From Solibacillus sp. FSL H8-0523 (GTDB lineage Bacteria > Bacillota > Bacilli > Bacillales_A > Planococcaceae): DNA of 64,000 nt. The translations under genes and the position numbers were made by a program. The notes beneath the pieces were generated by a model that saw nothing but the letters and a program-made list of their open reading frames with translations, did no database searches and was not told the origin of the DNA. Shown here in pieces: positions 1,341 through 35,042 of this stretch. The stretch spans positions 3,100,001 to 3,164,000 of the forward strand of contig NZ_CP150291.1 in NCBI RefSeq assembly GCF_038051985.1, written 5' to 3'. The number at the start of each line of letters is the position of its first letter. Position 1 is the stretch's first letter.

Positions 1341-1649
1341 TATTTGTGGGCTACGGCATGACAGCATTATGGCCACGTGGTACGTGTCCATACTACTGTC
1401 TTTAATGCCGTTTGCGATGCCCACCAACCCATCATTTTCCTCTCGTCATAAAGTTAAGAGCACAAAATCAAGCCGCTTGCGCTAACGCGAGGCGGCAGAT
1501 TGTGAAAAGGTTTGGCGCGGAATGAAGGAATACTTCGAACACATTGCTTCAACGAAAGGAGTTGGACGGAGTGGAGGGGCCGACTTCTAGAGGATAAGCG
1601 TGCGCGGAAAATCCAATGTGAAGTGCCACCGTCAGAGGCACTTCACATT
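1341..1649 (+). repeat. dispersed structured intergenic repeat, family 1, long copy
   Basis: The left block (about 1341-1365) matches GGGCTACGGCATGACAGC, also present in the copy at 18586-18726 and, with one base missing, in the copy at 34906-35042. The right block (about 1601-1649) contains GCGCGGAAAATCCA followed by a hairpin with loop ACCGTCAGA. Between them lies extra sequence not found in the shorter copies, including an imperfect hairpin at 1346-1424 (GTGGGC/GCCCAC, CGGCAT/ATGCCG, GACAG/CTGTC, TATGG/CCATA). It ends 180 bases from the pyk terminator. Function unknown; it could be a non-autonomous mobile repeat or a structured RNA. Confidence 0.65.
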
Positions 1650-1747
1650 TAGTTGGAGCCACGCCCTCAGAGTAGAAGAACGAATGCTAAGTGCGCCACG
1701 TCCTGTGGCAACGCATTCGTGACCAACATCGTGTTGACCTCCCGCAG

Positions 1748-1810
1748 CGCAGTACAACGGACTCGAGCTTCAAACATCCTTGCTTCAACACGTTTCCCAC
1801 GTAGCAGAAC
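1748..1810 (-). repeat. intergenic repeat, family 2, copy 1
   Basis: Read on the minus strand, this 63-base segment begins GTTCTGCTACG and ends AGTCCGTTGTACTGCG. Both blocks recur exactly at 15498-15562 on the plus strand, 65 bases end to end, while the interior is only partly conserved (a GTTGAA-like patch and a GAT-rich patch). On the minus strand it is followed by a nested hairpin at 1680-1720 with arms ACGAATGC/GCATTCGT and GCCAC/GTGGC. No coding potential is evident. Confidence 0.6.
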
Positions 1811-1830
1811 AGCTCTAAATTAAATGTATA

Positions 1831-1865
1831 AAAAAATCCATTTTCACAACGGAAAATGGATTTTT
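1831..1865 (-). terminator. rho-independent terminator of pfkA-pyk
   Basis: On the minus strand a stem AAATCCATTTTC-type arm pairs across a five-base loop and is followed by a run of seven T. It lies directly downstream of the pyk stop codon. Confidence 0.85.
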
Positions 1866-1878
1866 ATTTGTTTAGCTT

Positions 1879-3639
1879 TTATAGTACGCTCGCATGGCCT
1901 TTATAAATAACGCCTGTTTCTGCGTCCATTGTGATTTCTTGGCCGTGGCGGATTAATGTTGTTGCTTCTTTTACGCCGACGATTACAGGAATCCCAAGGC
2001 TTAAGCCCACTACTGCTGCGTGCGATGTTAAACCACCCGCTTCGGTAATAATCCCTACACAGTTTTCGATGGCTGGCATCATTTCACGGTCAGAACCAAC
2101 CGTAACGATGATAGCGCCTTCTGTATCATACGCTAATGCTTCGCCTGCATTTTTCGCTACGATTGCTTTACCAACAACCGAAGATTTCCCAATGCCTTGT
2201 CCGCGCGCTAGTAAGTCACCGATGATGTGCACTTTCATTAAGTTTGTTGTACCAGCTTCACCAACTGGTACACCCGCTGTAATCACGACAACATCTCCGT
2301 GTTGGACGAATCCATGCTGTAATGCCTCGTCAACTGAAAGCTCTAAAATTTCATCTGTCGTTGTTACGCGGTGCGTTAAAATTGGTTTTACGCCCCACAC
2401 TAATGTTAATTTTTGCGCTGTTGACGCTTGACTAGTTACAGCGATGATTGACACACCTGGACGGTATTTTGCGATCATTTTTGCTGTGTTACCACTTTCG
2501 GTTGGTGCTAATACTGCCGCTACCCCTAAATTGATAGATGTGAACGCTACTGCTTGTGAGATTGCTTCTGTCATGTTTGCTTCTCTTTCGCGGCTACGTT
2601 GCGATACGATTTGACGATAATCCAATGCATTTTCTGTTCGTTCAGCAATTTTGTTCATCGTTGCAACAGATTCTACTGGGTAAATACCAGCCGCTGTTTC
2701 ACCTGAAAGCATAATTGCATCCGTTCCGTCCATGATGGCATTGGCTACATCTGATGCTTCTGCACGTGTTGGACGTGGGTTACGTTGCATAGAGTCTAAC
2801 ATTTGTGTTGCTGTAATAACTGGTTTCCCAACTTGGTTACATTTTTTAATTAGTGATTTTTGTACAAGAGGTACTTCTTCAGCTGGAATTTCTACCCCTA
2901 AATCACCACGTGCCACCATTAAACCATCTGACACTTCAATAATGGCATCAATATTGTCTACGCCTTCTTGATTTTCGATTTTTGGAATAATTTGAATGTG
3001 GCTACCGTCATTTTGCTCTAATAGCTCACGGATTTCTAATACATCTTTTGCCGTACGCACGAATGAAGCGGCGATAAAGTCAACACCTTGATCAATACCG
3101 AATAAAATATCAGCTGCATCCTTTTCCGTAATCCCTGGTAATTTCACAGAAACACCCGGTACGTTAACACCTTTTTTATTTTTTAAGATGCCCGCATTTT
3201 CAACGATTGTGTGAATTAACCCTTTATCAACATCTTTCGCTAATACACGTAATTCAATTAAGCCATCATCTAATAAAATAACGTTGTTTTGTTCGACATC
3301 TTCGATTAAACGTTCATATGTTACAGAAAAACGAGACTCATTTCCAAGTACTTCTGTCATTGAAATATCAATTACTTGACCTGTCACTAAATGAATTTCG
3401 CCGTTTTCCATTGAATGCGTACGAATTTCAGGACCTTTTGTATCTAATAAAATGCCGACTGGTTTTTTCATACGATCAGATGCGTCACGGATCGCTGCAA
3501 TGCGCACTGCATGTTCTTCATGATTACCATGCGAGAAGTTTAAGCGGGCTACGTTCATACCAGCCGTGATTAATTTATCTAGCATTTCTGGTGATTCACT
3601 TGCAGGACCAATCGTACAAACAATTTTCGTTTTTCTCAT
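1879..3639 (-). CDS. pyk: pyruvate kinase
   Basis: 586 residues, matching the long Bacillus-type pyruvate kinase, which transfers phosphate from phosphoenolpyruvate to ADP as the last step of glycolysis in the cytosol. The (beta/alpha)8 domain carries [10 protein letters not shown] (about 65-74), [10 protein letters not shown] (about 220) and the MARGDLGVE and TATQMLDSM signatures (about 243 and 266). After the allosteric C domain there is the extra PEP-utilizer-like domain of Bacillus enzymes, with [10 protein letters not shown] near residue 535; its histidine is the phosphohistidine position in related proteins, though the domain is not needed for catalysis. pfkA ends 26 bases upstream on the same strand, so pfkA-pyk form one operon. 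A GGAG motif precedes the ATG. Confidence 0.97.
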
Positions 3640-3665
3640 AGTTTTGTCATCTCCGTTTTTCCACT

Positions 3666-4628
<963 letters not shown>

Positions 4629-4729
4629 CTATTTTCCTCCTACTTGTCTCATACTATTCACATTAACAGAAAAATGGTCTATATGTAACTATTCTGGAAA
4701 ACAAAAAATACAATGTTAATAAAAAAATT

Positions 4730-4755
4730 AAAGAATGCGCTTTCACGCATTCTTT
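4730..4755 (-). terminator. rho-independent terminator of gntR-accD-accA
   Basis: A perfect ten-base stem (AAAGAATGCG / CGCATTCTTT) with a six-base loop, followed on the minus strand by AATTTTTTT. It lies 30 bases past the accA stop and separates accDA from pfkA-pyk. Confidence 0.88.
4732..4745 (-). promoter_or_regulatory. candidate cre (CcpA) site upstream of pfkA
   Basis: On the minus strand TGAAAGCGCATTCT fits all 14 positions of the core TGNAANCGNWNNCW. The leading W position is G. It is about 110 bases before the pfkA ATG. It coincides with the accDA terminator stem and loop, so the match may be accidental. Confidence 0.4.
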
Positions 4756-4784
4756 GTAAATTAATTTAACATTCAGTCGTATTT

Positions 4785-5738
4785 TTATTCTGAAAACTGA
4801 CCGATATTTTTAAATTTTATATAGCGATCTTCAATTAATTGATCGGCAGTTAAACTACTTAATTCAGATAAATGAAGTTCAAGTGCTTGCTTCATAAAGA
4901 TTGCTTGCGCCGCTAAGTCTTTATGTGCGCCGCCTGCTACCTCTGGAATAATGCCATCAATAATAGCTAACTCCTTCAAATCGAGCGCCGTTATTTTCAT
5001 AGCCTCGGCTGCTTGCTTCGCGTAGCTAGCATCTTTCCATAAAATTGATGCCGCGCCTTCTGGTGAAATAACCGAATACGTTGAGTTTTCGAGCATTAAA
5101 ATTTTGTTCGCAACACCCAGCGCTAATGCACCACCACTACCACCTTCGCCAATGACAATACTTATAATTGGTACCCTAAATCCAGCCATTTCAAACAGAT
5201 TTCGTGCAATCGCTTCACTTTGTCCGCGCTCTTCGGCAGCCTTGCCTGGATACGCACCTTTCGTATCAATTAGGCAAATAATTGGACGGTTAAATTTTTC
5301 CGCCTGCTTCATTAAACGCAGTGCTTTTCGGTAGCCTTCCGGATGCGGCATCCCAAAATTGCGACGAATATTTTCCTTCGTTGTTTTCCCACGCTGATGG
5401 CCAATAATCGTTACCGACTGTCCATTAAAGGATGCAATGCCCCCAACAATTGCGGCATCATCTTTAAATGTGCGGTCGCCGTGTAATTCAATAAAATTAT
5501 CGAAAATACGTTCAATGTAATCCAGTGTTGTCGGTCGTCCCACATGGCGAGCAACTTGCACACGATCCCATGGTTCGATATTGGCGTACACAGATTTTTC
5601 AAGCTCACTAAGTCGTGTTTCGAGCTTTTCAATTTCGCCGCTCATATCGACTTCTGCTTCCTGCGCAATCGTCTTTAATTCCACGATTTTTTCTCTAAGC
5701 TTTACAACGGGTTCTTCAAACGCCATTAATTTAGACAT
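4785..5738 (-). CDS. accA: acetyl-CoA carboxylase carboxyltransferase subunit alpha
   Basis: 317 residues from the start chosen here. AccA with AccD forms the carboxyltransferase that moves the carboxyl group from biotin on AccB to acetyl-CoA, giving malonyl-CoA for fatty acid synthesis. Visible family features are the coiled N-terminal region, [15 protein letters not shown] (about 66-80), [19 protein letters not shown]-like residues (about 110-128) and the oxyanion segment [15 protein letters not shown] (about 197-211). An in-frame ATG exists 21 bases earlier, but AAGGAGG lies seven bases before the ATG at 5738, which overlaps the last codons of accD by eight bases. The overlap indicates translational coupling and equal subunit supply. 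Confidence 0.96.
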
Positions 5739-6603
5739 GTGATACGCCTCCTTCAACATGTAGCTTTACAATCGTTGCAATTTTGTCACGCATCTCATTA
5801 CGACTAAAAATGGCGTCTAATTGACCGTGATCAAGTAAAAATTCTGCTGTTTGGAAATCATCCGGCAGTTTTTCACGTACCGTTTGTTCGATAACACGAC
5901 GTCCGGCAAAACCAATCAACGCTTGTGGCTCTGCAATATTGTAATCGCCAATCGATGCAAAGCTTGCAGATACCCCACCAGTCGTTGGATGTGTCAAAAT
6001 CGAAATATACAATAACCCTTCTTCACTATGTCGCTTTAACGCGACACTCGTTTTTGCCATTTGCATCAGTGACAGCACACCTTCTTGCATCCGTGCGCCA
6101 CCACTTGCTGTGAAAATAATAAACGGCACGCGAAGATTCGTCGCCTTTTCCACTGCACGTGTAATTTTTTCCCCTACAACTGAGCCCATTGAGCCCATAC
6201 GGAACGTCGAATCCATGACCGCAACAACAACGGGCATCCCCTTTAATGTACCTGTGCCTGTTAGTACCGCTTCATTTAATCCGGTTTTCTTTTTATCGAC
6301 TTCAATTTTTTCAATATATGCTGGGAACTGCAATGGATTGGTTGTTTGTAGGTGGTCGTCCATTGATGTAAACGAACCCTCATCTATAAAAATCGCCATA
6401 CGCTCTTTTGAGTTGAGCGTAAAATGGTGCTCACATTTCATACATACTTTTAAATTTTTCTCTAATTCTTTTGTGACATGAATCGCTTTGCATTTTGGGC
6501 ATTTTGTGACAATGCCTTCTGGAAATGCCTTCTCATCTTCCCTTTTTGAAATATTACCATTATTTTTTTTACGACTAATTGAAAATAAATCACGAATTGC
6601 CAT
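5731..6603 (-). CDS. accD: acetyl-CoA carboxylase carboxyltransferase subunit beta
   Basis: 290 residues, equal to the B. subtilis protein. A zinc ribbon is formed by C35, C38, C54 and C57 (CPKC...CMKC), followed by the crotonase-fold carboxyltransferase domain with [12 protein letters not shown] (about 152-163) and [11 protein letters not shown] (about 194). The open frame extends further upstream, but AAAGGGGG sits seven bases before the ATG at 6603 (with another ATG one codon earlier), so the shorter start is preferred. It follows gntR by 28 bases and overlaps accA, so the three genes form one operon controlled from the gntR promoter. Confidence 0.96.
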
Positions 6604-6631
6604 CATACATCCCCCTTTGATTGACTGTGCC

Positions 6632-7267
6632 TTAGCGCTCGAGTAATCCCATCCATTTTTCATATGCTTGTATCGCTTCATACGTATAGCCCATTTGCAT
6701 TGCCTTGAGCATCATTTCGACTTCAAGCTTTTCATCTTTTGAAATGGCCTCTGTTAGTAAATCCCCACTAAACGAGGCAAGCTGCATCCAAATTTTTAAC
6801 GCTAATCGGTTGCCACTTGTAATGATGCATTCACGCAGTAAATCTTCGCGAGACACTGGCTCACCTAGCTCAACTTTAATAAAAAAACTGTCCCAAATCG
6901 GTAAGGTACGTAACTGCGTAGACTGACAAATAATATGAATCGCTTCTCTTTCATGCATTTGCCTCGTTGCTAAAACATCGGACGCTGATTTTTCATCTTG
7001 TAAAATAAACGAACTCAAAATTTCAACGAATTGATGCTGCTTCATGCTTGCTAAATACGTTCCGCCACCATGCTTCGTTTCGATTAAGCCTAGTAGCTCT
7101 AAACTACGCAGTGCTTCACGAACAGATGAACGCCCTACCTGCAATTGCTCGGTTAGAACGCGTTCAGAAGGTAATTTTTGCCCCGCTTGAATGTTTTGAT
7201 CGGCAATCAATTCACGCAGTTGCCTTACAATTTGCAAAAACATTTTTTTCTCTGGCTTGTGCTCCAC
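6632..7267 (-). CDS. GntR/FadR-family transcriptional regulator ahead of accDA
   Basis: About 211 residues. The N-terminal winged helix is typical of the FadR subfamily: [24 protein letters not shown] and a wing ending HGGGTYLA (together about 35-80). A shortened, all-helical C-terminal domain follows where FCD ligand-binding domains sit. The GTG at 7267 follows GAGGTGA at about five bases; a GTG three codons earlier (7276) is also possible. It is the first gene of an operon with accD and accA. A perfect TGGTCTGACCA palindrome, the type of site bound by FadR-like GntR proteins, lies about 90 bases upstream beyond a good promoter, so it probably represses itself and accDA. The ligand is unknown; an acyl-CoA or other fatty-acid signal is a guess from context. 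B. subtilis has a malic enzyme gene in this neighbourhood instead. Confidence 0.82.
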
Positions 7268-7320
7268 TGTCCTCACCTCAATCTCAATAACGCCTCGGCA
7301 TTACTTTGTGTAGATTCACC

Positions 7321-7334
7321 TTGCGTCAACGCAA
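7321..7334. promoter_or_regulatory. perfect palindrome in gntR leader
   Basis: TTGCGTCAACGCAA: six-base arms, two-base spacer, about 55 bases before the gntR start. It may be a second operator; no U-run follows, so it is not a terminator. Confidence 0.35.
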
Positions 7335-7356
7335 TAAAATTAAACCAGACTAAAAG

Positions 7357-7367
7357 TGGTCTGACCA
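7357..7367. promoter_or_regulatory. FadR/GntR-type operator of gntR-accDA
   Basis: TGGTCTGACCA is a perfect 5-1-5 palindrome inside AGTGGTCTGACCAGTT, close to the TGGTCNGACCA core known for E. coli FadR and PdhR-like GntR proteins. It lies 15 to 25 bases downstream of the -10 box at 7383-7388, the usual place for a repressor to block initiation. Confidence 0.6.
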
Positions 7368-7382
7368 GTTTTCCTATAACTA

Positions 7383-7411
7383 AGAATACAAAATGTTTTT
7401 GTCGTTGTAAA
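7383..7411 (-). promoter_or_regulatory. sigma-A promoter of gntR-accD-accA
   Basis: On the minus strand TTTACA (7406-7411), a 17-base spacer and TATTCT (7383-7388), about 115 bases before the gntR start. Confidence 0.5.
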
Positions 7412-7508
7412 GGAAATTCCACACAAACGATTCATCGCTATAAGGATATTTATGTATAGCACATAAATTTTACGATTTTTCGATGAATAATTTTTCATAC
7501 AGCAAAAA

Positions 7509-7540
7509 GAGCGCTTTCTAGCAATCACTAGAAAACGCTC
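7509..7540 (-). terminator. rho-independent terminator of dnaE
   Basis: On the minus strand GAGCGTTTTCTAG pairs with CTAGAAAGCGCTC across a six-base loop, followed by TTTTTGC. Confidence 0.88.
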
Positions 7541-7550
7541 TCAATATTAT

Positions 7551-10625: not shown

Positions 10626-10644
10626 CTTTCATCCCCTCCTTCAT

Positions 10645-11586: not shown

Positions 11587-11678
11587 AAAGTTTCCCCCTA
11601 AGACATCATGAATACCTATCGCAATTTCCAGAAAAAGCCGTTACAATACTTAGTAGTTTTGCGATTGGGAGGTTCATT

Positions 11679-11990
11679 ATGGTTTATTTAAATTTTTTGT
11701 TAGTAGCTTGTATTATTGCTTCACTTGTCTTTTATTTTTACTTTAAAACAAAACAGTTCCGTTCGACTTTACCGATTCGTTCGAAATGGTATAAGGCAAA
11801 GTCAGGTGTAGCACTTGCTTCATTTATCATTTCCTTTGGTTTAAATGCAACCATTCTTTACCCTGACGTAGTTGGCTATATCGTAGCGATTGTATTCTTA
11901 ATAATTGGTATCGGTGTCGGTACGAATAGCTACAAACGCATGCGTCACGAAGGGCGCTTTGTGCAAGAAGAGTATGATTTAAATAACTAA
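11679..11990 (+). CDS. ytpI: YtpI family small membrane protein
   Basis: 103 residues with three hydrophobic helices (about 3-22, 42-60 and 65-83), a basic middle loop and a charged C-terminal tail. A GGGAGG ribosome binding site lies seven bases before the ATG. It is divergent from nrnA and convergent with ytoI, the same arrangement as ytpI in B. subtilis. The function of the family is unknown. Confidence 0.85.
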   Translation: MVYLNFLLVACIIASLVFYFYFKTKQFRSTLPIRSKWYKAKSGVALASFIISFGLNATILYPDVVGYIVAIVFLIIGIGVGTNSYKRMRHEGRFVQEEYDLNN

Positions 11991-11992
11991 TG

Positions 11993-12028
11993 GTAAAGGG
12001 CCACTACAAGACGTAGCGGCCCTTTTAC
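11993..12028. terminator. bidirectional terminator between ytpI and ytoI
   Basis: Arms GTAAAGGGCC and GGCCCTTTTAC with an inner CTAC/GTAG pairing and a five-base loop. T runs on the plus strand are short but usable; it lies between two convergent genes. Confidence 0.75.
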
Positions 12029-12054
12029 GTCTGAGTTAAAATGTCTGTTTGTTC

Positions 12055-18540: not shown

Positions 18541-18580
18541 AAAACGCCATCATCCTTTAATTTGGATGATGGCGTTTTTT
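18541..18580 (+). terminator. terminator of the stress protein gene
   Basis: AAAACGCCATCATCC pairs with GGATGATGGCGTTTT across an eight-base loop, followed by TTTTTTAATT. Confidence 0.92.
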
Positions 18581-18585
18581 AATTA

Positions 18586-18726
18586 TTTTTTGCCTGTGAC
18601 GGTGGCAAAAAAAAATGGATTTTCCGCGCGGTGCTCCTGTCGCTCTGCTTTCGTCGCAGAATTTAAAGTCAGTCCATAAGGAACTGACTTTAAATTTGCT
18701 GTCATGCCGTAGCCCGCCAATAAATA
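18586..18726 (-). repeat. dispersed structured intergenic repeat, family 1, short copy
   Basis: Read on the minus strand: GGCGGGCTACGGCATGACAGC, a perfect 14-bp hairpin (arms AATTTAAAGTCAGT/ACTGACTTTAAATT at 18660-18673 and 18683-18696), then GCGACGAAAGC, AGCGACAGGAGCACCGCGCGG, AAAATCCA and a terminal hairpin with loop ACCGTCACA closed by GCC/GGC and a T/A stem (18586-18612). It starts six bases past the terminator of the stress protein gene and lies between convergent genes. Confidence 0.7.
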
Positions 18727-18781
18727 TGCAATACTTTATACGGAAATTTCCTACATATGATTAAATTTCATTTATTGATTA

Positions 18782-19726
18782 TTATCTTTGTTGGTCATTC
18801 CCCTCGCGCCACATGCTTACTTTTTCAAAGAACATTGCAAGTGCTTCGCGGTTTGACATATTTGGTACTTTTGCTAGTAACACCTCACGTGGTGCTTTTA
18901 ATGTACTGCTTTGCTTTTGTAAAATTAAAATACTCTTCTCATGCGCACGTGATGTAAATAGGTTTTCCGGTAGTTGAATGACCGCTTGAATCCATGCATT
19001 ACCTTTAATGAATTTGTGTAATTGCTTTGATTGCTCTGATTCAAACAAGTTTGCTGGCACTAAGAAGAATGCAAAGCCGCCCTCTTTTGTATAATTCATC
19101 GATTGCTCGATAAATAAGTGATGTGCATAGCTCATGCCCTCTGTTGCACATAATTCGTAATCAATTGCCACTTCTTCATTTGGATAATAGCCAACTGGTA
19201 AATCACACACGACTGCGTCCACTGGATCTACTAATAATTTTTCAAGTGCATCTTGACGGAATAATGTCACCGGCTGCTCGATTAAATCTCCCGTTGCAGC
19301 TGCAAGACGAATTAATAAATCATCCACTTCAACACCTGATGCTTGCACATTGCCCTGTAACGCATTCATGACCGTAAATAACAAGTTCCCTGTTCCAAGT
19401 GCTGGATCTACTACTGAAATCGGTCCTTGCTTTAATTGGTCCTCGAAGCATTGCTCCACAAAGTGGGCCACGAGTAAGCCTAATGTATCTGGCGTCATTT
19501 GGTGGTTGGGCTGTGCACTTTTACGCATGCCTTTTAAAATGGCAATTTGGATCGCTTTACGCATATCTTCCTTTGTTGCCTCTGCTACTTGCCACTCAAA
19601 CTTGCCATCAAGCGTATCTTCTAACGCCTGTAATAATGCCTCTAAATAATCTAAACCTTCTGCTTCGACTACTTTTTCAGCATAGTCATTTACATATTTA
19701 AAAATCTGTTCGAATTTTTCCATCAT
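18782..19726 (-). CDS. ytxK: class I SAM-dependent methyltransferase YtxK
   Basis: About 314 residues. The architecture resembles the N6-adenine methyltransferase core of type I restriction enzymes: a helical N-terminal part, motif I DPALGTGNLLF (about 114-124) for S-adenosylmethionine binding, and DLPVGYYP (about 180-187) in place of the NPPY catalytic motif. The altered catalytic motif is shared by YtxK proteins, so DNA methylation cannot be assumed; the substrate is unknown. AAGGAG precedes two adjacent ATG codons (19726 and 19723); longer in-frame starts lack a ribosome binding site. It follows tpx on the same strand, as in B. subtilis. Confidence 0.85.
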   Translation of the reverse strand: MMEKFEQIFKYVNDYAEKVVEAEGLDYLEALLQALEDTLDGKFEWQVAEATKEDMRKAIQIAILKGMRKSAQPNHQMTPDTLGLLVAHFVEQCFEDQLKQGPISVVDPALGTGNLLFTVMNALQGNVQASGVEVDDLLIRLAAATGDLIEQPVTLFRQDALEKLLVDPVDAVVCDLPVGYYPNEEVAIDYELCATEGMSYAHHLFIEQSMNYTKEGGFAFFLVPANLFESEQSKQLHKFIKGNAWIQAVIQLPENLFTSRAHEKSILILQKQSSTLKAPREVLLAKVPNMSNREALAMFFEKVSMWREGNDQQR

Positions 19727-23873: not shown

Positions 23874-23885
23874 ACTAATTATTTA

Positions 23886-24098: not shown

Positions 24099-24122
24099 AT
24101 GTTGCTCACCTCCTTGTGACAT

Positions 24123-24152
24123 TAGAATGCACCGGATGAACATTTTCATACA
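24123..24152 (-). promoter_or_regulatory. sigma-G-type promoter of sspA
   Basis: Minus strand TGTATG (24147-24152), 17-base spacer, CATTCTA (24123-24129), close to the sigma-G pattern TGAATA-N17/18-CATACTA. It ends 24 bases before the start codon. Confidence 0.7.
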
Positions 24153-24210
24153 CGCTCAAAAACAGGTAATTCCTACTTCTACTAGGAAATCAAAGGCAAC
24201 TTTGTATCAA

Positions 24211-26567: not shown

Positions 26568-26607
26568 TTTTTCATACCTTCTTTTTTTGTCCTAATATCC
26601 GAAAGAA

Positions 26608-26637
26608 AACCACCCGCATCATACATGCAAGGTGGTT
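26608..26637 (-). terminator. terminator of ezrA
   Basis: Minus strand AACCACCTTGCAT pairs with ATGCGGGTGGTT across a four- to five-base loop, followed by TTCTTTC. Confidence 0.72.
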
Positions 26638-26692
26638 GTTCATTTTGCTTATTTATTATACCGCTAAAATACTTAACATGTAACCGTTATGC

Positions 26693-28396: not shown

Positions 28397-28534
28397 TGTA
28401 AGCCCCCTAATTCCAAGAAAAAATCAATAAATTGGCTATATACATATAACTAATAATAACACGTTTTTTTGGATTTGTTTAACTATTTACAGGTTTTTTT
28501 ACAAGGAATCCCTTAATTTTAAAGGAGGACAATT

Positions 28535-29341
28535 ATGCAAAAGCGAGACGGTCATATACATACACCTTTTTGCCCACATGGTAGTAGTGATTCATTCGAA
28601 AAATACATTACAAAAGCCATAGATAATGGGTTTACTGAAATTACGTTTACAGAGCATGCACCACTGCCATTTCCCTTTACCGACCCTACTCCGGACAAAG
28701 ATAGTGGGATGAAGCATGAATTATTACCCGCGTATTTCGAACAATTACAAGTGGTAAAAGAACGCTACAAAGGGCAAATAATTATTAATATTGGTTTAGA
28801 AGTTGATTATATTGTAGGCTTTGAAGAGCAAACACGAAATTTTTTAAATAAAGTGGGGCCAATGCTTGATGATGCCATCCTTTCCGTACACTTTTTACAG
28901 CATCACGCACGTTACACATGCATTGATTTTTCAGATGAGGTGTATTTACAATTTGCAAAAGAGGTTGGTGGCATCCAACCAATGTACGATTTGTATTATG
29001 AAACAGTGAAGCAATCGATTTTAGCGGATTTAGGTCCATATAAACCGAAGCGCATCGGACATCCAACACTCATTCATAAATTTCAGCTTGCGCATAGTGA
29101 AACAATAGATGATAGTGCACAAATCGAATCTGTCCTACAACTCATGAAAGCACATCACTATGAACTTGATTTCAACAGTGCTGGCTTAAGTAAATCGTTT
29201 TGCCAGGAGCCTTATCCTACGATTGACCATGCTTTGTTTGCTAAAAAAATCGGTGTCCCCATCGTTTTTGGATCCGATGCACATACTGCTAACGATTTAC
29301 ATCAACACTATAATGTGTTACAACAAAAACTAACTTTTTAA
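28535..29341 (+). CDS. hisJ: histidinol-phosphatase, PHP type (HisJ)
   Basis: 268 residues, HisK/HisJ class. The PHP metal-binding motifs are DGHIHTPFCPHGS (about 5-17), FTEHAP (about 38-43), the glutamate in NIGLEVDY (about 87-94), SVHFLQ (about 118) and the terminal GSDAHTANDLHQ (about 248-259). It dephosphorylates L-histidinol phosphate in histidine biosynthesis. AAAGGAGG precedes the ATG. No other his gene is near. ytsP starts 14 bases downstream on the same strand, so the two are probably co-transcribed. Confidence 0.95.
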   Translation: MQKRDGHIHTPFCPHGSSDSFEKYITKAIDNGFTEITFTEHAPLPFPFTDPTPDKDSGMKHELLPAYFEQLQVVKERYKGQIIINIGLEVDYIVGFEEQTRNFLNKVGPMLDDAILSVHFLQHHARYTCIDFSDEVYLQFAKEVGGIQPMYDLYYETVKQSILADLGPYKPKRIGHPTLIHKFQLAHSETIDDSAQIESVLQLMKAHHYELDFNSAGLSKSFCQEPYPTIDHALFAKKIGVPIVFGSDAHTANDLHQHYNVLQQKLTF

Positions 29342-29355
29342 ATTTGGAGGCTACT

Positions 29356-29835
29356 ATGTTCGCAAAAACAATGTATAACGGCACCCTTGCCGATCAGTAT
29401 GACTTATTATCAAAACAGCTCGATGCATTATGCACAGGCGAAACAGATGCCATTGCGAACTACAGCAATGCTTCTGCCTTGTTAAATCAATTTTTAACGG
29501 ACATTAATTGGGTAGGCTTTTACTTTATGAAAGGCGGCGAGCTTGTTCTTGGGCCATTCCAGGGGCTACCTGCTTGCGTACGTATCCCAGTAGGTCGTGG
29601 CGTTTGTGGGACAACAGTTGCTAAAAAAGAAACGATGGTTGTTGAGGATGTACACGCATTCCCAGGTCATATCGCTTGTGATGCTGCATCAAAATCAGAA
29701 ATCGTTGTTCCAATTATAAAAAACAACGAAGTAATCGGCGTACTTGATATCGATAGTCCAATAGAAGCGCGTTTTAATGCGGAAGATCAAGCAGGCTTAG
29801 AAAAGTTTGTTGCTGTCTTACTTAAACATGTCTAA
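29356..29835 (+). CDS. ytsP: GAF-domain free-methionine-(R)-sulfoxide reductase (YtsP)
   Basis: 159 residues, one GAF domain. The three cysteines that define free methionine-R-sulfoxide reductases are in place: LPACVRIPVGRGVCGTTVA (about 77-95) supplies two and HIACDAASKSEIV (about 111-123) the third, followed by GVLDIDSP (about 134-141). It should reduce free methionine-R-sulfoxide with thioredoxin. TTGGAGG lies about six bases before the ATG at 29356; an in-frame TTG four codons earlier overlaps the Shine-Dalgarno and is rejected. Paired with hisJ. Confidence 0.93.
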   Translation: MFAKTMYNGTLADQYDLLSKQLDALCTGETDAIANYSNASALLNQFLTDINWVGFYFMKGGELVLGPFQGLPACVRIPVGRGVCGTTVAKKETMVVEDVHAFPGHIACDAASKSEIVVPIIKNNEVIGVLDIDSPIEARFNAEDQAGLEKFVAVLLKHV

Positions 29836-29839
29836 CACT

Positions 29840-29872
29840 AAAAAGCTCCCCACGACTGTGGAGAGCTTTTTA
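29840..29872. terminator. bidirectional terminator between ytsP and the cyclase gene
   Basis: AAAAAGCTCCCCAC pairs with GTGGAGAGCTTTTT across four bases; it overlaps the stop codon of the minus-strand gene. Confidence 0.9.
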
Positions 29873-31723
29873 ATATTGTAATTCCATTGATTCTTCAAAT
29901 AAGCAAACACGATTTTTCCCACTTCGTTTTGCATTATATAATGCAGTATCTGCATGTAGGAAAATCTCTTGGAAGTCTGGGCGTACTTGTTTATGCCATG
30001 TAATGAGTCCAGCTGAAATGGTTACAGATGGGCTAGTCGTTTGCGGTACAATGTCCACAACCATTTGCGCGATTTTTATCGCTTCGTGGTCTAAAATATT
30101 TGGAATATAGACCGCGAGCTCTTCCCCGCCCCATCTTGAGCAAATGCCACGCGTCCCGATTTCTTGTTGTAAAACAGAACCAATCTGAACGAGTACTTCA
30201 TCACCGACCTGATGCCCATAGGTGTCATTTACCTTTTTAAAGTTATCAATATCGATTAATAAAAACATACCTGAATCATCTTGCTGAATCGATTGTTCTA
30301 CATAATTATCCGAAAATCTTCGTGCATATAGCTTCGTTAAATGATCACGGTCCACCATTTCTTGCAAGCGGTTACGTAAAATTGAATTCGAAATGGCAAG
30401 TGATGAATGATGAATCAGTGATTGCATTAATTTAAAACTATCAAACGAGAAGAAATAAGGGTCTTCATGTAACACAATGCTAAATCCATTGATTCGTTCC
30501 TCGACAATCATTGGAATGGCCATAATCGATTTAAATGGGATTTCTTCATCGATTAAACGACTAAAATCCGCAATAAACAGCGAATCTTGTGTCACTTCAA
30601 AATGTTTTTCCACATGCTCGATATATGTCTGACTTGATTCGTGTAGGAGGAAATTTGTACAAGCCTTCATTGCCTTATATTCGTCTCCCTCTTTAAAGAA
30701 GAAGCCTATTTCCATTGGCTGGAATGATTTTAGAAGTTGCTTTTGTAAAAACAGTAGCATCTCATTAATGGACAGCTTCATATTTAAACGATGCGACGTT
30801 TCGTTGATTAATTGTAAATCGCTCACTAGGCGATGTGACTGATGATAAAGTTTTGCATTTTCTAATGCATTGCCTGACGCTTGCGCGAGCATACGAATAA
30901 ATTCTTTTTCTGTATTTGAAAAAGTATATTCAATCGGTGCCTTTACTTGTAAAATTCCGTAGATCGCTTGTCGTCCTTTAATTGGCGCGTTTAATAAACG
31001 AACACCTAACTCAACTACTTCATCTTCCTTCATTTCACCTGAAACAAACGATTCAATTGTTGACGGGCGCTCTGACAAATAATCAAACGGCTTAATATGT
31101 ACGCGCGTTTGGCGATCTTGGTCATTCGATAAAATAAGCTCTACTTCAAAATTCGTGAAGTTTTCTTCAATTGTGACCAGTACATTTTCTAAAATCACAT
31201 CAATGTTCATCGTTGAATGGAATAAATCTGTGATGTTATATAATTTACGATATTTATTCTCATTGGATTGCACTTCATAGTTACGAAGTATAAATTGATA
31301 GATATTTGAAATTTCTTTAACAATATCTTGCGTTAGATTTATTTGGAGCGTAGGATCTTCATAGCTAAAAATGAGGATTGCTAAAATCTCTCCATCTACC
31401 ATTAATGGCACAGCGTGTGTATAATGTTGAAAATACGGATACACGCTAAATACATCTGGTATCTCGATAATCTGTTGTCCATTTAAATAGGGTTGCACTT
31501 CGCTAAATGTAAGCTCAACCGAAAATTTAAATTCTTTGAAGTTCGGCTTCAGTACATCGTGACTTACTCGAAACAAAAAGCAATCTTTCATTGCAAAATT
31601 CTTAATTAAACTTTTTTCTAGTAAAATAAATGATTCATTAGACATGCCGTGTTTTTTGTTCATGCTAATAAAACTCAAGACATCTGATTTAAATCGGTCA
31701 ACCAATAGCTGATAATCTACCAT
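29870..31723 (-). CDS. dgcP: GAF-GGDEF diguanylate cyclase DgcP (YtrP)
   Basis: 617 residues. Two or three GAF-like sensory domains fill about residues 20-440 and a C-terminal GGDEF domain spans about 455-610, starting DRDHLTKLYARRFSD. The active-site signature reads RWGGEELAVYI, a GG[DE]E[FL] variant with the metal and catalytic acids kept, and LLIDIDNFKKVNDTYGH is intact, so synthesis of cyclic di-GMP from GTP is likely. No I-site RxxD is evident directly upstream of the signature. No membrane segments, so the sensor should be cytosolic. Position before rpsD matches B. subtilis dgcP. AAAAGGTGG precedes the ATG. Confidence 0.92.
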   Translation of the reverse strand: MVDYQLLVDRFKSDVLSFISMNKKHGMSNESFILLEKSLIKNFAMKDCFLFRVSHDVLKPNFKEFKFSVELTFSEVQPYLNGQQIIEIPDVFSVYPYFQHYTHAVPLMVDGEILAILIFSYEDPTLQINLTQDIVKEISNIYQFILRNYEVQSNENKYRKLYNITDLFHSTMNIDVILENVLVTIEENFTNFEVELILSNDQDRQTRVHIKPFDYLSERPSTIESFVSGEMKEDEVVELGVRLLNAPIKGRQAIYGILQVKAPIEYTFSNTEKEFIRMLAQASGNALENAKLYHQSHRLVSDLQLINETSHRLNMKLSINEMLLFLQKQLLKSFQPMEIGFFFKEGDEYKAMKACTNFLLHESSQTYIEHVEKHFEVTQDSLFIADFSRLIDEEIPFKSIMAIPMIVEERINGFSIVLHEDPYFFSFDSFKLMQSLIHHSSLAISNSILRNRLQEMVDRDHLTKLYARRFSDNYVEQSIQQDDSGMFLLIDIDNFKKVNDTYGHQVGDEVLVQIGSVLQQEIGTRGICSRWGGEELAVYIPNILDHEAIKIAQMVVDIVPQTTSPSVTISAGLITWHKQVRPDFQEIFLHADTALYNAKRSGKNRVCLFEESMELQY

Positions 31724-31983
31724 TTAACCACCTTTTCTTTCACATTTGCCGTTTTTACATTTTATTTTAATTTATTCTAAGTATACACATCTCGTGTCTA
31801 TTTGACCATTTAATTTTGTTATATTTTTCTAATTTATATAACGAAAGATCTTATTTCAGACATTTTCTAGCACTTTCGTTAAATCAAAGCCACCCACCCA
31901 TAGGTAATTAAACCTAAGAATTCCTCTAAATAAATAATTTTATTTTACAAATTAAATCCTTTAGCATATAACACTCTTATTGG

Positions 31984-32012
31984 TTGACGCCCACTTTAAA
32001 AAAAGTTACAAT
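31984..32012 (+). promoter_or_regulatory. sigma-A promoter of rpsD
   Basis: TTGACG (31984-31989), 17-base spacer, TACAAT (32007-32012). Confidence 0.78.
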
Positions 32013-32018
32013 AGCAGT

Positions 32019-32211
32019 TGTGTAAAATGAATGCAGTAGTTGTATAGCTTATGTGTATATTTTATTCCTTCTATCTTAGTAGAATGGTGTATTGCGTAAC
32101 CCTCTAGGCTGCATGGGCGAAGGTACATGAAAATAAAATATCTCGTAAGACAGGGTACAACTGGTTTTTTCTTTTACAACAAAAACCAAATTTGAAGGAG
32201 GAGACACAATT
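32019..32211 (+). ncRNA. rpsD (S4) autoregulatory leader
   Basis: About 190 bases of untranslated RNA lie between the promoter and the rpsD start. The part from 32090 to 32160 includes GGCTGCATGGGCGAAGGTAC, which I recognise as similar to the Bacillus S4 leader, where free S4 binds and represses its own translation. A hairpin TGGTTTTT/AAAAACCA (32162-32169 with 32181-32188) lies just before the AAGGAGG ribosome binding site. The assignment rests on position and remembered consensus. Confidence 0.65.
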
Positions 32212-32814
32212 ATGTCTCGTTATACAGGTCCATCTTGGAAACTTTCTCGTCGCTTAGGTATTTCTTTAAGCGGTACAGGTAAAGAAATCGCAAAACGCCC
32301 ATACGCACCAGGTCAACACGGCCCGAATGCTCGCGGTAAAAAATCAGAATACGCTTTACAATTAACTGAAAAGCAAAAGTTACGCCACACTTACGGCATG
32401 ACTGAGCGTCAATTCAAAAACGTATTCTTAAAAGCTGCTAAATTAAAAGGTCTACACGGTGAAAACTTCATGATCCTTCTTGAAACTCGCCTTGACAACT
32501 TAGTATACCGTTTAGGTTTAGCTCGCACTCGTCGTGCAGCTCGTCAATTAGTAAACCACGGCCATATCTTAGTTGATGGTAAACGCCTTGACATCCCTTC
32601 TTACTCAGTAAAACCAGGTCAAACGATCTCTTTACGTGAGAAATCAGCTAACTTAACAGTTGTTGCTGAAGCTATCGAAGTTAACAACTTCTTACCTGAA
32701 TATGTATCATTCGATGCTGACTCTAAAGTAGGTACTTTCGTACGTTTACCAGAGCGCTCTGAATTACATGCTGAAATCAACGAACAATTAATCGTAGAGT
32801 ACTACTCTCGTTAA
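32212..32814 (+). CDS. rpsD: 30S ribosomal protein S4
   Basis: 200 residues, the standard size. S4 nucleates 30S assembly by binding 16S rRNA. The N-terminus [18 protein letters not shown] and the RNA-binding S4 domain (about 92-155, [34 protein letters not shown] in part) are clear. The zinc-type cysteines of some S4 paralogues are absent. Codon use is strongly biased as expected for a ribosomal protein. It stands alone, away from other ribosomal genes, as in Bacillus, and has its own promoter, leader, AAGGAGGAG ribosome binding site and terminator. Confidence 0.98.
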
Positions 32815-32832
32815 TCGTAACGAACTTCAGAC

Positions 32833-32869
32833 AAAAACCATCAAACATTATGTTTGGTGGTTTTTTTTA
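32833..32869 (+). terminator. terminator of rpsD
   Basis: CCATCAAACA pairs with TGTTTGGTGG across a three-base loop, followed by eight T. Confidence 0.92.
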
Positions 32870-32875
32870 CGTTCT

Positions 32876-32913
32876 AAAAAAGACATTCACAGTCAATCCG
32901 TGAATGTCTTTTT
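32876..32913 (-). terminator. terminator of the Yip1-family gene
   Basis: AAAGACATTCAC pairs with GTGAATGTCTTT across a nine-base loop, with T runs on both strands. Confidence 0.85.
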
Positions 32914-32914
32914 A

Positions 32915-33532
32915 TTAAAATAGCAGAGCAATTGCTAGTACACCTAAAATAATTAACACTAACAACGACGCAAAAAATGCTTTCCATTTCGAAATTTTAT
33001 GCACTTCCGAAATCCCGACAATTGTTAGGATATACGTCCAAACACTGGCAATAATAATAAATGTCCCGCAAACAAACTGAAGTAGGAAATCGCTCATTTG
33101 TTGTGGCATGTAGGCTATCTCAAAAAATGATTGCGGAGCGAATTGCATCCAAAATAGGATAACCGGTAATATCCAAATATACGGCACCATCGTTATACTG
33201 ATCATGCGGAACATATTTTTGAACGTTCCCACACCACCAAATGCTTTGGCGGATAATGTTAATACTCCAGCAGATAAGAACGTAGAAAGAAAGTACATTA
33301 AAAAACTCGATAGAAATGTTGAATAAATAATATCCCCTAATGTATATTCCCCGGTAAATTTTGTCCCCACAAAGCTAATCAGATTGCTCGCGAACATACC
33401 AACAATCCCAACAAAAATGAAATACGGTAGATTTTTTGTCGCTAATACATAGCGCATTGTCTCACGAGGTTTTAGCGCAATACTCAAAATCGCGTGACGA
33501 TCATCGGCTAATGTATTTTGTTCAATAGTCAA
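32915..33532 (-). CDS. Yip1/YIP-family membrane protein
   Basis: 205 residues with about five membrane helices (near 33-55, 75-97, 115-135, 150-172 and 183-204). The N-terminal segment with a short motif PRETMRYVLATKNLPYF (about 18-34) just before the first helix is typical of bacterial Yip1-domain proteins, whose function is unknown. The start is a TTG with AGGAGG eight bases upstream; no ATG nearby fits. It is transcribed toward rpsD and ends in its own terminator. Confidence 0.8.
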   Translation of the reverse strand: MTIEQNTLADDRHAILSIALKPRETMRYVLATKNLPYFIFVGIVGMFASNLISFVGTKFTGEYTLGDIIYSTFLSSFLMYFLSTFLSAGVLTLSAKAFGGVGTFKNMFRMISITMVPYIWILPVILFWMQFAPQSFFEIAYMPQQMSDFLLQFVCGTFIIIASVWTYILTIVGISEVHKISKWKAFFASLLVLIILGVLAIALLF

Positions 33533-33621
33533 AGATAGAACCTCCTAAAAATATGTATAGTATCTATTATACTAATATCATACAAGGGATTCAAAGTTAT
33601 TGAAGCACAAATTATCTAGCC

Positions 33622-34797
33622 CTACTCTTCTTCCTTCAAAGAAACATAGCCTGCCTCTTCTATTAACGCTTGCCCTTCATCAGATAAAATCCAATCAATG
33701 AGTGCCTTTACATTTCCCTTTGGTTCACCCGCTGTTACAATATAAAATTCCGAGGCAATCGGATAACTATTTGCTCGAATCGTTTCTTTCGTCGGTTCTA
33801 CACCGTTAAGCTTTAATAATTTGATTTCGTTATTTTTCACCATTTCATTTGAATAATATCGGAATGTATAGCCAATCGCATTTTTATAGTTCTTGTACTG
33901 TGACACCTCATGAATGATCCCACCCATCCCGGTTGCTACGTCTTCACTTGGCGCTTCCATTAATGGTGTCTCGCCCATTAAACGCTCGAGTGCGGTTTGT
34001 GAGCCACTATCTGCTGGACGCTGGAAGGCACGAATTTTTTCATTGTCCCCACCAACTTCAGACCAATTTGTCAACTCGCCTGAATAAATGCCCTTTATTT
34101 GCTCTAGTGAAAGCTCATCAATGTCATTTTTACTATTCACAAAAAACACAAACGCTTCTCTGCCAATCGGTGTTAAATGAAACGCAACACCTTGATTTTT
34201 CGCGCGCTCAATTTGCTGATCAGATGGACCTGCTACAAAAATCATGTCTACGTTACCATAAATTAAATTATCATACGCACCATGTGTTTGATTGACCATC
34301 ACTTCACTCGCATAGGGGTTATACGTTTTTTCTGGATATACGGCCTCTGCAACGGCAGCGTATAGCGGATACAGCGCAGTTGCCCCGTCCATGATTGGTA
34401 AGTTGTCTTGTAATTGTAGTGAAGCCGGCTGATCTAAACGCACGATATTACTCTCTTCCACAAACGGCTCATACTGGTAAATATTTACTTCCGCGCTTAC
34501 CGTTGACACTCGGCTATCAATCCATTTCATCATAGGCTGTATAGAGGCTGCAATCACCACAATCGCTACAATTCCCCAATACAGTTGTACACGCCTTTTC
34601 TGTTGAACAAAGAAACCAAATAGTTGAAGCACAAAGCCAATATAAAAACTGACCACTACTGCAACTAACAACGGTAAATAATGCATTCCACCACTTAACG
34701 AAATCATAAAAAATGCAATAAACGAAAAGAACCCTATCGGTATCAACGTAAATATCGCCAAAGCAATCTTTCCACCACAAGATTTTTCCACTATCAT
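33622..34797 (-). CDS. membrane-anchored PstS-like substrate-binding protein
   Basis: About 391 residues. Three hydrophobic helices at the N-terminus (about 10-30, 38-60 and 70-90) precede a periplasmic-type binding domain. That domain has the PstS-like phosphate loop LPIMDGATALYPLYAAVAEA (about 132-151), VDMIFVAGPSD (about 184-194), IGREAFVFFVN (about 212-222), GELTNWSEVGG (about 242-252) and RPADSGSQT (about 262-270). PstS is normally a lipoprotein with permease genes alongside; here there is no lipobox and no pst transporter gene, so a sensor or receptor role is as likely as transport. AGGAGG precedes overlapping candidate starts (GTG 34800, ATG 34797, GTG 34791); the last has the best spacing. 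Confidence 0.8.
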   Translation of the reverse strand: MIVEKSCGGKIALAIFTLIPIGFFSFIAFFMISLSGGMHYLPLLVAVVVSFYIGFVLQLFGFFVQQKRRVQLYWGIVAIVVIAASIQPMMKWIDSRVSTVSAEVNIYQYEPFVEESNIVRLDQPASLQLQDNLPIMDGATALYPLYAAVAEAVYPEKTYNPYASEVMVNQTHGAYDNLIYGNVDMIFVAGPSDQQIERAKNQGVAFHLTPIGREAFVFFVNSKNDIDELSLEQIKGIYSGELTNWSEVGGDNEKIRAFQRPADSGSQTALERLMGETPLMEAPSEDVATGMGGIIHEVSQYKNYKNAIGYTFRYYSNEMVKNNEIKLLKLNGVEPTKETIRANSYPIASEFYIVTAGEPKGNVKALIDWILSDEGQALIEEAGYVSLKEEE

Positions 34798-34905
34798 CAC
34801 CCTCCTTTTTATAGTGTAATTTTACACTATCAGTTTAAAATTACAACTAAAAAATAAAAGATTCTCATTATTATAAGGATTGTTTTAAGTATAAATTTCT
34901 ACATA

Positions 34906-35042
34906 TTTATTGGTGGGCTAGGCATGACAGCGCTAAAGCCATGTATACTCCTGTGGGAACAGCAAATCTTTATTTGCGACGAAAGCGTAGCGACAGGAGC
35001 ACCGCGCGGAAAATTCATTTTTTGTGCCGTCATCAAGAAAAA
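34906..35042 (+). repeat. dispersed structured intergenic repeat, family 1, second short copy
   Basis: Contains TTGGTGGGCTAGGCATGACA, a variable middle with the small hairpin GCAAAT/ATTTGC, then GCGACGAAAGCG, AGCGACAGGAGCACCGCGCG and a terminal hairpin (35018-35042) with loop TGCCGTCAT closed by TTG/CAA and a T/A stem. It ends exactly against the tyrS terminator, between the PstS-like gene and tyrS. Confidence 0.7.

Follow-up and report, generated by a model that had tools for sequence, protein, structure and literature searches.

Transposons of the ISL3 family have GG-initial termini and generate 8-bp A+T-rich target duplications. BOX elements of Streptococcus pneumoniae, in the available text of Croucher et al. 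(2011, PMC3049150), are modular and intergenic, vary in length and have a predicted RNA fold; their middle modules are variable, their termini resemble those of resident insertion sequences, and repeats occur nested within repeats. The same text places BOX-type repeats in streptococci and reports that hidden Markov models gave no cases in Staphylococcus aureus. The accessible part of a 2008 study (PMC2267715) describes bcr1 and other stem-loop repeat families as intergenic, with tens of copies (for example, the 74-nt Bhal-1 of Bacillus halodurans, with 36 copies). REP/RAYT systems consist of GTAG/CGTC-tagged palindromes of 20-40 bp moved by a RAYT transposase (see PMC3733652). Finally, Bacillaceae-1 RNA (RF01690), typed in Rfam as an sRNA gene, has the entry 'Y n n' in its table row in the available part of Weinberg et al. 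(2010, PMC2864571).

We analyzed a window of 64,000 nucleotides from Solibacillus sp. FSL H8-0523 (contig NZ_CP150291.1, positions 3,100,001 to 3,164,000), in which a first-pass annotation had pointed out three intergenic repeats as either a MITE-like mobile element or a structured RNA family. The repeats are present at the places and on the strands it gave, and they are decayed or truncated copies of a non-autonomous transposon (MITE) of about 600 nt. Both of the offered options hold together, because the element contains a segment with strong covariation. Our reading, to which we assign a probability of roughly 0.8, is that the sites are MITEs moved by a DDE transposase of the ISL3 family, and that the structured core they carry is a wider, exchangeable module that is found across Bacilli and in some cases inside transposons. 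An intergenic location, modularity, variable length, a predicted RNA fold, variable middles, IS-like termini and nesting are common to this element and to BOX as presented in the available text (PMC3049150), a likeness in description; unlike BOX as described there, the core is class-wide, has several terminal frames, and in two transposon families lies within autonomous elements. The bcr1/Bhal-1-type families likewise are intergenic, form stem-loops and have tens of copies, but the accessible part of PMC2267715 gives species-level lists, with no transposase link or cross-genus covariation described; Bhal-1 could be a fragment of the core. A REP/RAYT-like repeat was rejected, since size, termini and 8-bp duplications favor ISL3.

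The coordinates of the three copies and their parts are given in Table 1. By Pfam, site 1 lies between FxsA and pyruvate kinase; site 2 has a universal stress protein on one side and on the other a YtxK-like/N6-methylase protein; and site 3 lies between a PBP-like protein and TyrS. For copy 1 the place stood but the extent had been set too short: the left flank of the relatives aligns up to 1285-1288 and the right flank restarts at 1828-1886 (9/9 relatives), which delimits the insertion. Copies 2 and 3 are more than shortened versions holding an unrelated insert; they are internally deleted and carry within them a distinct hairpin unit (a variable stem plus TGCGACGAAAGCG.AGCGACAGGAGCA). This unit (GCGACGAAAGCG..AGCGACAGGAGCA) is found elsewhere in other copies too, also in reversed orientation, and positions 18632-18738 are 85-89% identical to other places in three genomes (G001, G002 and G014). 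Fold z scores, in addition to that of hp1 (Table 1), were -4.6 for the 3' hairpin of copy 1, -4.0 for copy 2 and only -1.2 for copy 3. Copy 3 gave no match to covariance model R1 at E <= 0.01 and is assigned by sequence similarity; it has no orthologous site for comparison because the neighboring gene differs.

Table 1. Features of the three element copies (positions in the window)
Feature	Position	Strand	Evidence
Copy 1: nearly full-length, degenerate MITE, fxsA to pyk terminator	1288..1825 (approximate)	+	Absent in 9/9 congeners
Copy 1 5' terminal repeat, degenerate	1289..1313	+	9 errors relative to GGTTCATCACCATAACATGGGGTTGC, weak alone; coincides with insertion boundary
hp1, long hairpin begun by left block GGGCTACGGCATGACAGC	1346..1424	+	Fold z -3.3
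hp2, GCCGCTTGCGCTAACGCGAGGCGGC hairpin	1472..1496	+	Seen in sequence; recurs in aligned copies
Copy 1 inner core: outer GCGTG/CACGC stem that covaries, a conserved internal loop, then a variable stem with loop ACCGTCAGA	1597..1668	+	Covariance model R1, 95.9 bits
Bacillaceae-1 RNA (RF01690) nested in core 3' strand	1671..1737	+	73.4 bits (gathering 35)
Core 3' strand resumed, CTCCCGCAGCGCAGTACAACGG	1738..1760	+	Alignment of copies
Copy 2: internally deleted MITE by universal-stress-protein terminator	~18590..18790	-	Absent in 9/9 congeners
Copy 2 left block	18698..18715	-	Exact match
Copy 2 nested unit: variable stem-loop + CTGCGACGAAAGCAGAGCGACAGGAGCA	18632..18697	-	Sequence
Copy 2 inner-core remnant: CCGCGCGGAAAATCCA + hairpin, loop ACCGTCACA	18592..18631	-	R1 at 18568-18635, 47.1 bits
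Copy 3: internally deleted, decayed MITE by tyrS terminator	34896..35042	+	Sequence similarity
Copy 3 nested unit: AAATCTTTATTTGCGACGAAAGCGTAGCGACAGGAGCA	34964..35001	+	Sequence

The family extends well beyond the window and shows several marks of transposition. The left block (up to three mismatches) occurs 44 times genome-wide, and 18 matches were counted for the other conserved block, GCGACGAAAGCGNAGCGACAGGAGCA, with no hits for either control (a reversed pattern in the case of the left block); at up to two mismatches, the left block is found in 7/16 genomes of the genus (own genome included) and is absent from the remaining nine. The ends of the MITE are inverted terminal repeats of about 22 bp (GGYTCATCACCATAACATGGGG..CCCCAACTTATGGTGATGAACC), both recognizable in 19 of the 87 listed copies (68 lack one or both). 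Around these two-ended copies, exact 8-bp duplications were seen in 5/19 and at least seven matches in 9/19, compared with means of 0.37 (maximum 3) and 0.69 (maximum 4) when partners were shuffled; the other ten have no clear 8-bp duplication. Searches of the relatives for empty sites found copies 1 and 2 both absent from every congener compared (Table 1), and model R1 detected no core in the 18 orthologous stretches (both sites, nine congeners each). Two of the congeners, G001 and G002, carry another insert at site 1, which looked like Bacillaceae-1 by eye, an assignment we dropped when no Rfam model matched at gathering level. The position of copies is not conserved, as expected for a mobile element. 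One MITE copy (L139) gave no match to plasmids.

The link to ISL3 comes from one end of one remnant: the right end of an ISL3 (PF01610) remnant, L180, is TTTGTCATCCCCGACTTATGGTGATGAGCC, identical with the MITE right end, and a similar end lies beside fragment L181. We found no intact ISL3 element with exactly the MITE termini (in G013, the end of the intact ISL3 is GGTTCTACAATATTTGTTGGGG), and where an intact ISL3 contains the core, its terminus is related to, yet different from, that of the MITE. A search of the window's own genome (G000) for PF01610 returned a single ISL3 stretch, a fragment with an internal stop and not an active matching transposase; the MITEs, which unlike ISL3 transposons contain no transposase, therefore have no evident mover today. 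GG-initial ends and A+T-rich duplications of 8 bp are nevertheless traits that the MITE has in common with ISL3 transposons; among the latter they were seen for the core-carrying copy, L172 (duplication TTTAAAAT).

In its 3' half the element carries a core of about 140 nt, in which five helices make up one imperfect rod. Its internal loops are conserved and asymmetric (GAGACUCC / GGAAAGCG, then GCGGAAAAUCC / UUAGUUGGAGCC), and the inner stem varies freely in sequence with pairing kept. Alignment A3 contains 12 compact copies (among them L209 and L211, compact copies of congeners) and was obtained from A2 by leaving out 8 of its 20 copies (long-form copies from the genus), so that the compact form aligned; it is 92.5% paired, with changes on both sides in 18/34 pairs (70 cells), compared with 12.1 pairs and 23.5 cells in shuffled controls and 6-10 pairs and 9-15 cells in slid controls. 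For the 68 copies of alignment A4, both-side changes were found in 32/34 pairs (364 cells), compared with 22.5 and 86 (shuffled) and 20-22 and 53-63 (slid). Alignment A1, for which 62 copies were thinned to 41, leaves out four dissimilar copies of those 41. For the inner arms (5/67 false matches dropped, then 7/62 without a parsable loop), 30 distinct pairs are 93% complementary, compared with 44% (maximum 57%) when partners are shuffled. Among 52 distinct copies of hp1, restricted to those of exactly 85 nt, 14/28 pairs changed on both sides. The structured part of the element is real, in that its covariation exceeds what column composition and slid controls produce.

Wobble pairs bear on whether the structure acts as RNA. 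In helices P2-P4, which we picked post hoc, G.U exceeds A.C by 21 to 4 genome-by-pair events (p = 0.0009), and over all helices by 29 to 15 (p = 0.049). Counts were 4 G.U and 8 A.C in P1 and 4 and 3 in P5, and in hp1 the bias is reversed (52 A.C cells and 7 G.U, mostly in two columns), so that P1, P5 and hp1, which have no G.U excess, resemble DNA palindromes or act on the opposite strand. Wobble intermediates are scarce overall (31 G.U in 1,752 cells). This scarcity, with the missing excess in P1, P5 and hp1, is what would be expected if the core were a DNA-level palindrome with no RNA role, its arms kept by hairpin-templated repair or by a transposase's need for a cruciform; we consider that explanation unlikely, because of the G.U excess in P2-P4 (subject to the post hoc choice) and because the asymmetric internal loops are conserved with fixed sequence on both sides.

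Model R1 matches 49/250 genomes of the family (9/19 genera) and the core model R2 matches 91/398 Bacilli genomes (33/146 genera), so the structure recurs in relatives. In a sample of the phylum, 3/299 genomes match, each in Bacilli, with none among those sampled outside Bacilli. Copies in distant genomes were searched for in 20 hand-picked genomes of the 91 that match. Copy number among Bacilli runs from none to at least 148 in a single genome (148/150 scored candidates match). One compact copy gave no match to phage records. Of 54 elements, 43 have called genes on both sides (the other 11 lack one on one side or both); both neighbors lie on the element's strand in 14 of the 43 and on the opposite strand in 17, and are convergent in 9 and divergent in 3; such near-random orientation argues against a fixed cis-regulatory role. 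It also weighs against the idea that the core is a domesticated structured RNA that benefits its host (or a terminator or 3'-UTR stabilizer) and was spread by transposons. The strong covariation would fit that idea, as would a copy that lies between the same flanks in three genomes belonging to a single genus (L264, L266 and L267); these genomes have one or two core matches each and are close relatives, 92-96% identical over 3 kb. Given also that congeners of the window's species lack the copies at the orthologous sites, and given the span of copy numbers, we regard a host-beneficial RNA as quite improbable.

The core also occurs inside autonomous transposons. In a congener, L172 encodes a 400-residue ISL3 transposase with the core directly after the stop codon, and is an intact ISL3 copy; in L168, an ISL3 element 70% identical to L172 over the shared part, the stop codon is followed by the terminal repeat and the core is missing, as it is from seven genus loci with open ISL3 frames in total (L168-L171, L177, L182 and L185). 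In a Peribacillus element of the IS1182 family (copies L296, L297 and L298), the core lies closely in front of the transposase gene and on the other strand, and relatives from Cytobacillus (L299) and an Arthrobacter-labeled record (L300) are without it. With related elements of both families lacking it, the core behaves as an exchangeable module. At least three outer frames surround it: the ISL3-type frame of the window's species and relatives, a type II frame with CTAACATTGAGCA.. ends (G001, G002 and G014) and a AAGAGGCTGGGACAAAA.. frame in Priestia. The label 'IS1182-like' for the Priestia frame was dropped, because the IS1182 copies here end differently. No transposase was found for the type II frame, and an exact 6-7-bp repeat flanks 6/17 of its copies at an offset chosen post hoc (17 of the 26 rows entered the count).

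Several of these observations would also be accounted for if the core were a hairpin mobile in its own right, with ends GTTGATT..AATCAAC, for which MITEs, transposons and terminator regions are insertion targets and the termini merely belong to its hosts: stand-alone compact copies with such ends occur in many genera, some ISL3 and IS1182 elements have the core while their relatives lack the whole block, and its outer frames differ. We think this rather unlikely, as no target duplication or empty site was found for compact copies, no record with the flanks minus the core was found for the Priestia and B. badius plasmid copies, no encoded recombinase was seen in the core, and the P1 sequence is not fixed across lineages (L236, L242 and L261), unlike the ends served by a single transposase. 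We instead read the core as a transposon-carried, exchangeable structured module, whose molecular role we infer as follows.

An ISL3-family transposase would bind the terminal repeats of the MITE, and cut-and-paste of the element into A+T-rich intergenic DNA would leave the 8-bp duplication. Transcription from the element's own or outside promoters would then allow the rod to fold, and the folded rod may keep both the expression of the transposase and the stability of the transcript independent of the neighborhood; insulated in this way, insertions would be tolerated. Such a role as an RNA-level boundary is the one we think likeliest, though at less than even odds. The nested hairpins (Bacillaceae-1 and the unit of copies 2 and 3) are taken as further small modules, perhaps gained likewise. 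A broader speculation, which we hold at somewhat less than even odds, is that in Bacilli one folded RNA module commonly accompanies unrelated DDE transposons (ISL3 and IS1182) and several MITE frames, either as passenger or as partner. It would be handed on as a unit, would reach well over 100 copies per genome in some cases and would live on transposons, at the RNA level, as a symbiont or hyperparasite, with Bacillaceae-1 and perhaps tsr24 as fragments or relatives of it. The same folded module in two unrelated transposon families makes it testable whether RNA modules with a taming effect on insertions are common to different DNA transposons.

Three unexplained intergenic repeats are thus part of a structured repeat spread over 33 of the 146 sampled Bacilli genera, for which Rfam 15 has no family at gathering level. 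The statement that no named family fits is borne out there, the nested Bacillaceae-1 RNA excepted; of 4,227 models, only this RNA and T-boxes reach gathering in the loci scanned. Bacillaceae-1 is a 67-nt nested module and not the whole element; it sits in the core 3' strand of window copy 1 and of seven further loci (11 of the 20 scanned have none), which gives this RNA a genomic context. Two sub-gathering, same-strand overlaps with the core are weak and serve as leads only: S. aureus tsr24 sRNA (RF02577; 3/14 loci, E 0.0026-0.17) and Listeria rliE (RF01459; 1/14 loci, E 0.012). Our literature search, largely outside subscription journals, found no description of this repeat family, and a sequence-word search of papers gave nothing relevant among the matches listed. 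Motif B (L046 and L052-L054) may be a feature of rRNA operons. The core may also account for some predicted small proteins in databases: on two Priestia plasmids, 'hypothetical proteins' (WP_080754389.1 and WP_205664564.1) are annotated across it.

The family is larger than the three window sites described by the first-pass annotation as a dispersed repeat. In the 4.14-Mb Solibacillus genome that contains the window (G000:C1:3100001-3164000), the conserved left block matches 44 times at up to three mismatches, against 0 in the control. Lined up, the copies define a full-length element of approximately 600 nt (see table), with internal deletions in many copies; a hairpin within the structured 3' half has the right block (GCGCGGAAAATCCA) as its 5' shoulder. 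A small separate unit (a variable stem-loop, then TGCGACGAAAGCG.AGCGACAGGAGCA) is nested at varying places and in both orientations, and it accounts for the resemblance between copies 2 and 3 of the window. The sequence GCGACGATAGCGCAGCGACAGGAGCA stands in the same context at four places in this genome (L046, L052, L053 and L054), which we guess may be rRNA-operon spacers.

Parts of the full-length element, 5' to 3' (from the copy alignment), and coordinates of features
Feature	Position	Description
5' terminus		GGYTCATCACCATAACATGGGGTTGC
hp1		hairpin, left block at its opening
hp2		hairpin GCCGCTTGCGC..GCGAGGCGGC
A+T-rich stretch		between hp2 and 3' half
Structured 3' half		precedes 3' terminus
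3' terminus		TTTGTCATCCCCAACTTATGGTGATGAACC
Copy 1 boundaries	window 1285-1288; 1828-1886	left flank aligns with congeners up to the first; alignment back at the second
Inserts at copy 1 site	L302 (G001) ~6549-6764; L301 (G002) ~6416-6631	~216 nt
ISL3 transposase stretch (L173)	G000:C1:530831-531166	internal stop
T-box leader RF00230	window 36440-36644 (-)	102.5 bits; upstream of tyrS
GCGGCGAAAGCGAAGCGACAGCCGCA repeats (L057-L059)	G000 3786620-3791685	in part tandem; like motif B, ends altered
GCGACGAAAGCGNAGCGACAGGAGCA motif (Psychrobacillus vulpis)	L065 6588-6761	five exact tandem copies, 37-nt spacing
WP_080754389.1	L283 1503-1685	annotated hypothetical protein
WP_205664564.1	L284 1501-1638	annotated hypothetical protein

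The element is ordinary in kind, a MITE (non-autonomous transposon), and unusual in content: it carries an exchangeable folded module, the core, which occurs across Bacilli and inside transposons of two unrelated families. Both ends were recognized in 19 of the 87 listed copies; in five of these 19 an 8-bp duplication is exact, and in nine at least 7 of the 8 positions agree (means of 0.37 and 0.69, and maxima of 3 and 4, over 5,000 shuffles with partners exchanged), a clear duplication being missing in 10. The proposal of a mobile, MITE-like element is borne out by absence at orthologous sites in relatives: copies 1 and 2 are both missing from their orthologous places in all nine congeners read, and R1, a covariance model of the 3' hairpin, detects no core in these 18 stretches (nine per copy). 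The comparison covers copies 1 and 2; at copy 3 the adjacent gene differs. The left alignment limit of copy 1 adjoins an earlier placing of its degenerate 5' terminus. At this site seven of nine congeners have a gap of 40-85 nt, and G001 and G002 have a different insert; insertions seem to favor the pyk terminator side. That insert is structured-looking and by eye resembles Bacillaceae-1 RNA, and it gave no Rfam match at gathering level. Sequence comparison demonstrates mobility of the MITE, and we infer that a transposase acts on it. Among 16 genus genomes, the left block (at most two mismatches) is present in seven, including the window's own, and absent from the other nine; ISL3 transposase (PF01610) is present in nine, and the PF01610 search found a single stretch in the window's genome. 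In the remnant L180 the MITE right end lies behind a transposase tail, and the fragment L181 has a similar end.

The core is common to several frames with different ends, and the shared part is therefore the core rather than the termini. In the congener G013 it lies 3' of the transposase in three ISL3 copies (L172, L178 and L183). L172 encodes an ISL3 transposase of 400 aa with PF01610, Zn-ribbon and HTH domains, and the core starts no more than 10 nt from the transposase stop codon; the element's end, GGTTCTACAATATTTGTTGGGG, resembles the window MITE in layout, and by eye TTTAAAAT flanks the copy on both sides (a 7-bp repeat flanks L178). A related ISL3 element, L168, has approximately 20 nt between stop codon and terminal repeat, without a core, and R2, a model of the core, has no match at E <= 0.001 in L168-L171, L177, L182 or L185. 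In a Peribacillus transposon, IS1182-family by record annotation (Pfam DDE_Tnp_1_6 and DUF772), the core is on the strand opposite to the transposase and 84 nt upstream of it. Two plasmids of a single strain have this unit (98.7% over its length), and a P. muralis copy (90%) has the core with no transposase annotated there; the core is missing from the IS1182 relatives found in Cytobacillus firmus and in a record with the label Arthrobacter citreus. A third frame is a Priestia unit of approximately 345 nt with ends AAGAGGCTGGGACAAAA.., and yet other ends surround the core in G001, G002 and G014. On plasmids L287, L288 and L284 only a few bases separate the start of the Priestia unit from a stop codon, and the unit has a terminator-like hairpin and T-run, as though replacing the gene's terminator.

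For the alternative offered by the first-pass annotation, a structured RNA family, covariation supports a conserved structure. The 3' hairpin set comprised 62 distinct copies (67 matches, five false ones dropped), 55 of them parsed; the inner arms form 30 different pairs with 93% complementarity, compared with 44% (57% at most) for exchanged arms, and the outer stem changes as a unit: GCGTG/CACGC occurs 36 times, GCACG/CGTGC 12 times and GCGCG/CGTGC, a wobble form, 5 times, with nine further combinations once each. A compact form of approximately 140 nt prevails among the copies read from other genera and also occurs in some congeners: GTTGATTGGAGTGGAAGG.GCGAGACTCCTGCGGGAACAGCRCG, loop, variable stem-loop, CGYGCCCGCGGAAAGCG..CCTGGAACGGAAATCAAC. 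Both sides changed in 18 of 34 pairs among 12 compact copies aligned by sequence, with the structure drawn on the alignment afterwards, and in 32 of 34 among 68 model-aligned copies from 54 genomes (364 doubly changed cells versus 86 shuffled and 53-63 slid), an alignment biased towards the model to which it was fitted. At the sequence level, these changes establish the core structure.

Counting each pair once per genome, G.U wobbles on the forward strand of the core outnumber A.C mismatches in helices P2-P4, picked post hoc (21 versus 4, p 0.0009), and in all helices together (29 versus 15, p 0.049), with no excess in P1 (4 versus 8) or P5 (4 versus 3). The hairpin hp1 has the opposite bias (7 wobble versus 52 A.C cells, chiefly in two columns). 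Evidence for an RNA role is moderate for the core, and wobble counts lend none to hp1; we infer that the core may be transcribed and functional. Orientation to neighboring genes, judged for 43 of 54 copies, shows no preference (both neighbors on the same strand 14, both opposite 17); nine places are convergent and only three divergent: the copies keep away from promoters, in the manner of tolerated insertions.

In line with the first suggestion that no named family fits, the core matches no Rfam 15 family at gathering level, and Bacillaceae-1 RNA (RF01690) is only nested in some copies, sitting within the core's 3' strand in copy 1 of the window and in seven other loci that had been picked for it by eye. 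Among 12 other loci scanned for it, 11 lack it and L036 has one upstream of the copy. Weak matches over the core to tsr24 (3/14 loci) and rliE (1/14) are leads only. Bhal-1 of B. halodurans (PMC2267715) may belong to the same family.

The structure recurs in related Planococcaceae, R1 matching all 16 genus genomes and 49 of 250 family genomes in 9 of 19 genera (up to 19 candidates being scored in each genome). Across Bacilli, R2 matches 91 of 398 genomes in 33 of 146 genera (E <= 1e-5, at most eight candidates scored per genome). In 20 genomes chosen by hand from the 91, with 150 candidates scored each, matches range from 1 to 148 per genome (G601 at least 148, G569 95, G592 69, G561 59). A phylum-wide sample, doubling as a specificity control, matched in 3 of 299 genomes, all within Bacilli. 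One compact copy matched none of 50,697 phage records and 14 plasmid records (six from Priestia, three from Peribacillus, two each from Bacillus and Paenibacillus, and one from Sporosarcina), with at least 80% of the query covered in seven. The hypothetical proteins annotated in L283 and L284 lie over the structured core and are perhaps not real genes.
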